Shown here one piece after another: positions 15,124-16,668 of a stretch of 42,544 nucleotides of DNA. The stretch spans positions 1-42,544 of the forward strand of contig CATLFX010000021.1 of the NCBI GenBank assembly GCA_949935795.1. The letters run 5' to 3'. Position numbers and translations under genes: made by a program. Position 1 is the first letter of the stretch. Each line of letters starts with the position of its first letter. Under the pieces are notes generated by a model. The model saw only the letters and a program-made list of their open reading frames with translations, was not told the DNA's origin and did no database searches. The DNA is from an uncultured Oscillospiraceae bacterium. GTDB taxonomy: Bacteria > Bacillota > Clostridia > Oscillospirales > Oscillospiraceae.

Positions 15124-15984
15124 ATGGAGCTCACCGCCAACGCCAAAATCAACCTGACCCTGGACATCCTGCGCAAGCGGGAGGACGGCTACCACGATCT
15201 GCAGATGGTGATGCAGTCCGTCACCCTGGCGGACCAGCTCACCGTCGCCCCCGCCCAGGGGGAGGAGGGAACGGCGCTGTCCGACCTCCACTTCCTGCCC
15301 ACCGGGGGGAAGAACCTGGCTCAGATGGCCGCCGCCGCCTTCCGCGCCGCCACCGGCCGGGGTGGCGAGGTGGATGTGTCCATCCGCAAGCGCGTCCCCG
15401 TGTGCGCCGGGCTGGCCGGGGGCAGCGCCGACGCCGCCGCCGTCCTCCGGGCCATGAACGGGCTCGCCGGGACGGGGCTGTCCCTGGAGGAACTGGCCCA
15501 AATCGGGGAGCGGGTGGGGTCGGATGTGCCCTTCTGCGTGCTGGGGGGCACCGCCCTGGCGGAGGGCCGGGGGGAGCGCCTTACCCCGCTGGCCCCTCTG
15601 CCTGCCTGTTATATCACCCTGTGCAAGCCCCCCTTTTCCATCTCCACCCCCCAGCTCTTCTCCCGGGTGAACGTGCGCAAAATCGTCCGCCGCCCGGATA
15701 CCGCCGGGGTGATCGCCGCCCTGGAGGCCGGAGACCTGGCGGGAGTGGCACGGCGGATGTACAACGTGTTTGAGGACGTGCTGGAGACCCGCCGCCTGGC
15801 CGAGATCAACGAGATCAAATCCGTCCTCATCGACTGCGGAGCGCTGGGAGCCTCCATGTCGGGAAGCGGGCCGTCGGTATTCGGCCTGTTCGCGGACAGG
15901 GACCGCGCCCAGGAGGCCTGTGACTGCCTGCTGGAGAGCTACCGTGACGTATTTTTGTGCGCCCCCGCCGGGCCAAATGTATAA
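15124..15984 (+). CDS. ispE: 4-diphosphocytidyl-2-C-methyl-D-erythritol kinase
   Basis: A 286-residue GHMP kinase of the non-mevalonate isoprenoid pathway that phosphorylates CDP-ME at the 2-OH. N-terminal ANAKINLTLDI contains the catalytic Lys; REDGYHDLQMVMQSV is the substrate loop; the ATP-binding glycine/serine motif is VPVCAGLAGGSADAAAV; the C-terminal GHMP motif is GASMSGSGPSVFG. ATG at 15124 follows AAAGGAGG, 16 bp after the S66 peptidase. Its end overlaps the -35 element of the spoIIR promoter, and read-through is stopped by the hairpin just before spoIIR. Confidence 0.95.
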   Translation: MELTANAKINLTLDILRKREDGYHDLQMVMQSVTLADQLTVAPAQGEEGTALSDLHFLPTGGKNLAQMAAAAFRAATGRGGEVDVSIRKRVPVCAGLAGGSADAAAVLRAMNGLAGTGLSLEELAQIGERVGSDVPFCVLGGTALAEGRGERLTPLAPLPACYITLCKPPFSISTPQLFSRVNVRKIVRRPDTAGVIAALEAGDLAGVARRMYNVFEDVLETRRLAEINEIKSVLIDCGALGASMSGSGPSVFGLFADRDRAQEACDCLLESYRDVFLCAPAGPNV

Positions 15985-16008
15985 AAGTAAAAAACACCGT
16001 CCATACTG
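15979..16008 (+). promoter_or_regulatory. Sigma-F-like promoter of spoIIR
   Basis: GTATA (15979-15983), 15 bp, then GTCCATACTG (15999-16008). This matches the forespore sigma-F pattern GYATA-N15-GGNNANANT except for T instead of G at the second -10 position. The -10 lies on the 5' arm of the hairpin at 15989-16041. The same arrangement precedes the spoIIQ-like gene. Confidence 0.6.
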
Positions 16009-16041
16009 TACCCACAAACGTACATAGGACGGTGTTTTTTT
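15989..16041 (+). terminator. Terminator-like palindrome joining the spoIIR promoter to its ribosome site
   Basis: AAAAAACACCGTCC (15989-16002) pairs perfectly over 14 bp with GGACGGTGTTTTTT (16027-16040). A seven-T run (16035-16041) directly precedes the spoIIR ATG at 16042. It is a good intrinsic terminator for transcripts coming from ispE and also hides GGTG, the only plausible ribosome site of spoIIR. Confidence 0.75.
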
Positions 16042-16668
16042 ATGAACATTACCTCTTCTTCCAAGCTGCGCATCTGGGAGGCGGCCCTGCTGCTGGCCTT
16101 TGGCATCACCCTCACCGTGGGCGTGTGGGCCAACGCCAGCGAGGCGGCCCTGGCCGACCGGGTGCTGCGCCTCCACGTGGTGGCCAACTCCGACTCGGAG
16201 GGGGACCAGGCCCGGAAGCTGCTGGTGCGGGACGCGGTGCTCTCACGGGCCTCCCAGCTGCTGGACGGCGTTCAGGACCGCCGGGGGGCGGAGGAGGCCC
16301 TGGCCCCCCACCTGGAAGAGCTGGCTCAGGCGGGGGCGGAGGCGCTGGCCCGGACGGGCAGCCGCGACCAGGTGTCCGTCGCCCTGGCCGACCAGTGGTT
16401 CCCCACCAAGGAATACGACGGCTTCTCCCTGCCCGCCGGGCAGTACCGGGCCCTCAAGGTGACCATCGGGGCGGGGGAGGGCCGCAACTGGTGGTGCGTG
16501 GTGTTCCCGCCCCTGTGCCTAGCCTCGGTGGCGGAGGAGTCCGTGGAGACGGCGGCGGAGGGCGTTTTGTCCCAGGACCAGGTGGCCCTCATCACCGGCC
16601 AGGACGGGGGCTATGTGCTGAAATTCCGGCTTATCGAGTGGTGGCAGGAGCTGACGGGCAATATCTGA
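16042..16668 (+). CDS. spoIIR: Stage II sporulation protein R
   Basis: SpoIIR is made in the forespore and secreted into the intermembrane space, where it triggers SpoIIGA to process pro-sigma-E in the mother cell. This 208-residue protein has an N-terminal membrane/signal segment (about residues 14-31, AALLLAFGITLTVGVWA). Family motifs follow: LRLHVVANSDSEGDQARKLL, VRDAVL, then WFPTKEYDGFSLPAGQYRAL and GEGRNWWCVVFPPLC. The length is near normal. The start at 16042 comes straight after a T-run and has only a weak GGTG ribosome site. The sigma-F-like promoter and overlapping palindrome suggest forespore-only expression. Confidence 0.95.
   Translation: MNITSSSKLRIWEAALLLAFGITLTVGVWANASEAALADRVLRLHVVANSDSEGDQARKLLVRDAVLSRASQLLDGVQDRRGAEEALAPHLEELAQAGAEALARTGSRDQVSVALADQWFPTKEYDGFSLPAGQYRALKVTIGAGEGRNWWCVVFPPLCLASVAEESVETAAEGVLSQDQVALITGQDGGYVLKFRLIEWWQELTGNI

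Follow-up and report, generated by a model that had tools for sequence, protein, structure and literature searches.

In the mobile elements IS10 and IS50, RNA that runs in from outside folds the end of the element over the transposase start, which RNA from the inner promoter cannot do. For Bacillus subtilis, it has been proposed that a hairpin of 20+ pairs keeps sigG untranslated in spoIIG read-through RNA, and this hairpin cannot form in RNA made from the sigG promoter, according to a section of PMC5942855 that cites Sun 1991 and Masuda 1988. In phage T4, a helix in the early read-through RNAs of e, soc, 49 and I-TevI (also mobE and segB) hides the Shine-Dalgarno sequence, and the late-promoter RNAs lack the 5' strand of the helix and are translated. 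In T4-type phages the late promoter of gene e lies within the region coding for this 5' strand, and the structure cuts lysozyme synthesis of T4 100-fold; the excerpts of both sources describe no terminator as part of the helix (PMC3014915, PMC2988022). The sigG and T4 cases thus make the principle an already known one.

Here we analyse a related arrangement at the junction of ispE and spoIIR in an uncultured Oscillospiraceae bacterium, within a stretch of 42,544 nucleotides (the window). The original prediction for this DNA had named T4 e and soc as precedents, and the excerpts on T4 indeed describe the same read-through logic. As with B. subtilis sigG (spoIIIG) in the section cited above, a forespore gene lies behind an operon transcribed from elsewhere. 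Unlike the sigG case, the gene is spoIIR and the upstream gene is ispE, which is probably constitutive; an arm of the hairpin bears part of the -10 element, and a T tract follows, so that the hairpin is terminator-like too. For the spoIIR element, covariation and wide conservation in the family, a gut-bacterial one, can also be shown. The T4 helices serve phage timing, whereas the spoIIR element concerns cell type, and IS10 and IS50 share its escape logic but are mobile elements. A search of titles and the beginnings of abstracts, covering few subscription journals, returned no description of a terminator that harbours a promoter and hides a ribosome site and none of the ispE-spoIIR junction; PMC9482736 contains both gene names, in passages that do not deal with the junction. 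What appears to be new is the fusion of the read-through mask with a terminator and a promoter, together with the covariation.

Cell-type-specific expression of SpoIIR ties mother-cell sigma-E to the forespore. Misplaced expression could matter, since B. subtilis SpoIIR without its signal-like domain, made in the mother cell only, still activates pro-sigma-E, as described in part of PMC13174948. With a probability of about 0.76, based on sequence and folding models, we read the junction as a read-through silencer, in which one hairpin would act as a terminator and as a mask over the ribosome site, and from which the gene's own sigma-F-type transcript would escape by starting in the loop. Such an element is a possible way to set a forespore gene straight behind a housekeeping gene, with stop codon, promoter, terminator, start site and ribosome site sharing 66 bases. 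It also leads to the prediction that a promoter starting in the loop of a terminator escapes that terminator, and suggests a compact insulator design.

Layout of the ispE-spoIIR junction

The 66 bases at 15979-16044, on the forward strand like both genes, hold a stop codon, a promoter, a terminator-like hairpin, a ribosome site and an ATG. Their order is GTATA-N15-GTCCATACT, a perfect 14-bp stem with the Shine-Dalgarno sequence on its 3' arm, seven Ts and the ATG at 16042. The ispE coding sequence (15124-15984) scores 211.2 bits against TIGR00154, above the NCBIfam cut-off of 138.7, and its stop codon TAA (15982-15984) is built into the -35 element GTATA (15979-15983), read as GTA-TAA. The gene spoIIR (16042-16668) encodes a protein of 208 amino acids, the signal to SpoIIGA for pro-sigma-E processing. 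Its Spore_II_R domain is present (PF09551, 148 bits, cut-off 25), and its match to TIGR02837 (145.9 bits, E 7.8e-43) falls under the cut-off of 151.9. SpoIIGA was not found in the source genome, an assembly of 2.24 Mb in 70 contigs that is itself 69.7% complete.

Behind the -35 element, an A-rich spacer runs into the 5' arm of the palindrome, AAAAAACACCGTCC (15989-16002), which pairs with the 3' arm GGACGGTGTTTTTT (16027-16040). An inner stem of 5 bp, TGTAC (16007-16011) with GTACA (16020-16024), lies inside the 14-bp palindrome. Re-reading the sequence confirmed the coordinates originally given for GTATA, the stem arms, the seven Ts and the ATG. The -10 element GTCCATACT (15999-16007), which had been placed on the 5' arm, lies there with four of its nine bases (15999-16002); the remaining five belong to an internal loop and the inner stem, and seven of the nine are paired in the predicted fold. 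A ribosome site GGTG had likewise been assigned to the 3' arm. Its position stands, and a better reading of its extent is AGGA(C)GGTG (16026-16034), held by the 3' arm sequence GGACGGTG and equal to the full AGGAGGTG with one bulged C. The partner of this bulged C is the first base of the -10 element, a conserved G. The seven-T tract (16035-16041) doubles as the spacer between the Shine-Dalgarno sequence and the ATG.

The RNA of the junction (76 nt) is predicted to fold with -24.9 kcal/mol (z -5.4), a value equalled by none of 200 dinucleotide shuffles. The palindrome core CACCGTCC-N10-40-GGACGGTG occurs at this single site in the source genome (2.24 Mb at the completeness given above), and no comparable palindrome was seen by eye at the four other genome sites of GTCCATACT.

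The promoter GTATA-15-GTCCATACT combines a GYATA-like -35 element, a -10 element that starts with G and a spacing of about 15 nt. Its assignment to sigma-F rests on this motif, and recognition by sigma-G would also be possible. The B. subtilis sigma-F consensus has a G at the second base of the -10 element; the T found at this position here speaks against the silencer reading. In Clostridium difficile, sigma-F is marked by a G in the upstream part of the -10 element (a passage of PMC3789822), and spoIIR shows residual transcription in a sigF mutant and may also be read by sigma-G (a passage of PMC7438776).

Promoter and arms in related genomes

SpoIIR was found in 121 of 150 family, 40 of 42 genus, 69 of 79 order and 171 of 245 class genomes. 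The matches of the window SpoIIR that bear family or genus names, many of them metagenome assemblies, point to Oscillospiraceae (Flavonifractor, Pseudoflavonifractor, Oscillibacter, Dysosmobacter) as the family compared here. Our family set comprises 159 loci, 40 from the genus (window included) and 119 others, leaving out one fragment with 31 domain positions (G062:C164). The order set has 28 loci, 27 new ones and L223, some of the matching order genomes being family members, and the class set has 44 loci, the 30 best and 14 picked for variety. Start codons were assigned by rule, the assignment was shifted in five cases to the ATG that follows the T tract, and two look doubtful (L026, L064). 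On the same strand, ispE lies upstream in 127 of the 159 family loci, and in 58 of 119 family loci its stop codon ends as in the window, being the TAA of the -35 element.

A forespore-type promoter precedes spoIIR in 138 of the 159 family loci, compared with 8-15 in five shuffles, and its spacer is exactly 15 nt in 133 of the 138. By a looser rule, a promoter was assigned in 37/40 genus loci, 111/119 loci in the rest of the family, 24/28 in the order and 36/44 in the class. Eleven of the 159 family loci have none by this rule, and three loci (L030, L033, L047) keep the palindrome and fail the promoter rule. Among 142 distinct family junctions, an A (78%) or a G (16%) stands 7 nt past the last T of the -10 element, and the base just before it is C or T in 85%. 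This YR initiator, whose distance from the -10 element is constant, puts the predicted start in the loop, at A16014 in the window.

The comparison named beforehand for this element was that the two arms should show compensatory changes while the promoter bases stay fixed, and this is what we found, with the compensatory changes counted in two data sets. The first consists of the 142 junctions, all with a 15-nt-spaced promoter, whose arms were aligned independently of each other and with no hand selection. In this set, 77.6% of cells pair, compared with 69.9±0.5% after shuffling and 43-59% when the arms are slid, and 146 two-sided compensatory cells were counted, compared with 55.8±5.9 after shuffling (maximum 75) and 45-89 when slid. 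The second is a MAFFT alignment (A1) of 91 of 111 rows, the other 20 having been omitted by eye because of a different-looking hairpin or start, a choice that works in favour of the structure. It gives 82.8% of paired cells (75.1±0.5% shuffled, 42-54% slid) and 122 cells changed on both sides (40.6±5.4 shuffled, 31-55 slid), and neither value was reached in any of 500 shuffles. Related sequences are not independent, and shared ancestry remains in these shuffle comparisons. With two-sided changes so far above the shuffles, the palindrome at this junction is not there by chance.

At the -10 element, all rows of A1 share the G of position 1, the A of position 5 and the T of position 9, positions that had also entered the promoter search, and position 4 covaries with the 3' arm (CG 66, UA 7, GC 5, AU 1, GU 1, unpaired 10). 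The inner helix has 76.5% of its cells paired in A1, with changes on both sides in four of its five pairs. RNAalifold returned no structure on A1, probably because of gaps and variable loops. With covariation in the pairing and none in the promoter bases, the constraint of RNA folding can be told apart from that of RNA polymerase within these data.

A near-perfect inverted repeat over a -10 element also sits in the usual position of a repressor site, and a protein dimer on the DNA might repress or activate spoIIR from it. We consider such an operator very unlikely. The distance from the end of the -10 element to the start codon ranges from 20 to 97 nt across the family, and from 26 to 97 nt within the genus, which fits poorly with fixed half-sites. 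In the 142 junctions, G-U cells outnumber A-C cells (180 vs 73), which argues for pairing as RNA of this strand and not for a DNA operator. Moreover, three relatives at order level (L199, L205, L206) have the same architecture with another stem sequence: GGGAGG or GGAGG pairs with CCTCT or CCTCC between the -35 and -10 elements.

Predicted masking and termination

As the measure of masking we used the opening cost of the ribosome site, an equilibrium free-energy prediction, and took a rise of at least 8 kcal/mol upon adding the upstream part as strong. For the window, the cost is 21.0 kcal/mol in the read-through RNA and 6.9 kcal/mol in the promoter transcript, so in silico a hairpin of the upstream RNA covers the ribosome site. 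As the 5' end is moved, the cost falls from 21.6 kcal/mol at 15988 to 12.0 at 15998, 7.4 at 16000 and 6.9 at 16002, and stays at about 7 beyond. In the model, any 5' end from about 16000 onward would therefore free the ribosome site.

These values bear on the idea that the hairpin works within the spoIIR mRNA itself, stabilizing it or dampening its translation, with the true start upstream of the 5' arm. There is a parallel in B. subtilis, where the sigG leader has a dampening hairpin at its ribosome site besides the read-through hairpin (a passage of PMC5942855). We nevertheless hold this explanation to be extremely improbable, because the 15-nt-spaced promoter and the YR initiator at seven nucleotides past the last T place the start in the loop, and translation would be expected to all but cease if the sole mRNA carried a mask of about 21 kcal/mol.

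Across relatives, the opening cost averages 21.3 kcal/mol with the upstream part vs 6.4 without it in the genus (n=37), 16.8 vs 6.1 in the rest of the family (n=111), 11.9 vs 4.8 in the order outside the family (n=24) and 8.4 vs 4.9 in the class outside the order (n=36). A rise of at least 8 kcal/mol is seen in 35/37, 76/111, 10/24 and 7/36 junctions of these groups, respectively, and a rise below 3 kcal/mol in 0, 21, 9 and 23. The family as a whole has 111 of 148 junctions at or above the threshold and 37 below it, so the arrangement is not universal among family junctions; in the named isolate Oscillibacter valericigenes An411, for example, masking is weak (6.7 vs 2.2 kcal/mol). The culturable relative Flavonifractor plautii ATCC 29863, by contrast, has the element (locus L276) with costs of 26.5 vs 5.8 kcal/mol. 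Among loci matched by the window SpoIIR, a set that overlaps the family set, 55 of 77 reach the threshold.

The mean of shuffled upstream parts reached a rise of 8 kcal/mol at no junction. When fixed distances were used, 106 of the 148 spoIIR starts reached it, compared with none of the 47 placeable ispE starts in the same loci, and it was reached by none of 45 mechanically listed window ORFs with a Shine-Dalgarno sequence. Strong masking in the model is thus absent at these control starts and becomes weaker in relatives more remote from the genus. At sigG of the genus the same trick is partly present, with 12 of 30 starts, placed by rule, reaching 8 kcal/mol at fixed distances. The proposal that RNA from upstream hides the ribosome site is therefore supported in silico, far above the shuffles and the starts of other genes.

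The hairpin also has the shape of an intrinsic terminator, with a GC-rich stem (8 GC pairs among the start-crossing pairs) and seven Ts directly after GGTG. A consensus terminator scan missed it because the scan allows loops of 3-8 only. A label of 'masked/terminator' taken from minimum-energy folds was dropped as evidence because it is too permissive, shuffled upstream parts being called 'both' in 245 of 740 cases. In the 111 strongly masked family junctions, the T-run before the start has at least five Ts in 79, four in 16 and three or fewer in 16; eight of the last group hold at least five Ts in the last ten bases, and two have doubtful starts.

One could therefore ask whether the junction is an intrinsic terminator of ispE and nothing else, the overlap reflecting a compact genome and the hiding of the ribosome site having no function of its own. 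The textbook succession of A tract, GC-rich stem and T tract and the prevalence of T-runs agree with this, as do three junctions (L091, L096, L143) that keep the hairpin and T tract and place the Shine-Dalgarno sequence beyond them. However, six strongly masked junctions show no T tract by eye (L008, L050, L101, L119, L120, L137), and the stems of L050 and L119/L120 extend over the ribosome site. Neither a -10 element nor a Shine-Dalgarno sequence is needed within a terminator, and we regard termination as the sole role of the element as unlikely. Termination and masking are mostly combined, and what is constant seems to be the silence of read-through RNA by either route.

We then propose a model for the silencer reading, which is supported at the sequence level by its parts, the covariation, the initiator signature and the energy contrast. 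RNA running in from ispE, if transcription arrives from there, would carry both arms, and the hairpin with its T tract would stop most of it. A ribosome that ends at the ispE stop codon (15984) could reach the base of the stem and weaken termination; in RNA that passes the terminator, the same hairpin would hide the ribosome site of spoIIR. Carrying the forespore sigma-F (or sigma-G), RNA polymerase would bind GTATA/GTCCATACT and start at about A16014 in the loop. Since this transcript would have the 3' arm alone, it would be neither terminated there nor masked, and spoIIR would be translated. One palindrome would thus serve as upstream operon end, promoter, start site and ribosome site, and SpoIIR, which might otherwise leak, would be kept out of vegetative, predivisional and mother cells. 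Of the original interpretation, the covariation with fixed promoter bases and the masking in silico have held up, and the start in the loop is predicted through the YR initiator.

Further sites of the element and short SpoIIR-like proteins

A covariance model of the element has matches in 92 of 150 family genomes and in 6 of 196 class genomes, two of the latter being the source genome and a member of its genus. By coordinates, all family matches lie at spoIIR except twelve. Six of the twelve precede ORFs of 66-91 residues ('mini-SpoIIR'), which combine an N-terminal hydrophobic stretch with the C-terminal WWGVVFP...FRLLEW of SpoIIR and lack the central domain. Pfam finds Spore_II_R in none of the six. 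Their genomes have no TIGR02837 match above the cut-off (one match at E 0.7) and are not among the family PF09551 matches, and all six encode SpoIIGA (PF03419), with a stop inside the match in two. A profile built from the six sequences detects further short forms within the five genera that harbour these six; 17 loci were examined.

It is tempting to speculate, at somewhat less than even odds, that the element stands for a class of 'self-bypassing terminators' that serves Oscillospiraceae as a developmental insulator. In this class, the 5' arm would hold the -10 element of the next gene and the 3' arm its ribosome site, and with the arms so occupied, RNA from upstream would be silenced twice and RNA begun in the loop would be immune. 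The insulator would be kept widely at spoIIR and used at other genes in a few genomes (a CBS-domain protein in two genera). The same tentative reading takes the element as a mark of mini-SpoIIR genes as well, and the C-terminal segment of SpoIIR as its signalling part: that mini-SpoIIR goes without the named domain and together with SpoIIGA implies that the WWxVVFP...FRLLEW segment signals. PMC13174948 calls the transmission of the SpoIIR signal poorly understood, and through the mini-SpoIIR genes the signalling part of SpoIIR could be approached directly.

The other six of the twelve matches are of several kinds. Two, in different genera, place the element before proteins with two CBS domains. 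One lies before a nucleotidyl transferase and one before an Ig/SLH protein, and the last two are short hairpins.

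Short SpoIIR-like proteins behind the promoter-palindrome

In six related genomes (loci L331, L332, L333, L334, L335 and L337), the promoter-palindrome, a sigma-F-type promoter overlapping a stem whose 3' arm carries the ribosome site, is followed by an ORF of 66-91 aa, with ispE lying upstream at L332-L334. These mini-SpoIIR ORFs keep a SpoIIR-like N-terminal hydrophobic stretch and the C-terminal WWGVVFP...FRLLEW, and the Spore_II_R domain was not found in any of them. The six genomes have no match to PF09551, the Pfam model of this domain, and none above the cut-off to TIGR02837, the NCBIfam model of SpoIIR. 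SpoIIGA, the receiver of the SpoIIR signal for pro-sigma-E processing, is present in all six.

Further short SpoIIR forms are found at L392, L394-L400, L402, L404 and L409. Under the strict promoter rule, the promoter is present at 7 of 17 short-form loci examined from five genera. The search for a full SpoIIR covered the six mini-SpoIIR genomes and a minority of the genomes of the further short forms.

The element before other genes and its variants at spoIIR

The element also precedes genes for two-CBS-domain (PF00571) proteins of 141 and 142 aa in two genera (L336 and L342), and this could be a second gene under the same control as spoIIR. A similar element lies before a nucleotidyl transferase gene (PF00483) at L339, in a genome that has the element at spoIIR too.

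In the window, the -35 (GTATAA, 15979-15984) includes the ispE stop codon, an overlap shared by 58 of the 119 family loci. At L053, L059 and L070 the loop is expanded, with 85-97 nt from the -10 to the start; the arms are retained, and the enlarged loops apparently hold a nested hairpin.

Predicted masking at sigG and in another family

For sigG of the same genus (L357-L386), upstream sequence raises the predicted cost of opening the ribosome site by at least 8 kcal/mol in 12 of 30 loci, with distances fixed and part of the starts doubtful. At L379, for example, CCCTCACC upstream lies opposite GGTGAGGG. This upstream masking resembles the B. subtilis sigG case.

At spoIIR in another family of the class (f26; L170, L173, L188 and L193), the predicted opening cost is 13.3-17.9 kcal/mol for the read-through RNA versus 0.6-3.4 kcal/mol for the own-promoter RNA. 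By eye, these four loci show CCCTT between the -35 and -10 opposite the ribosome site AGGGGG, and no T tract.
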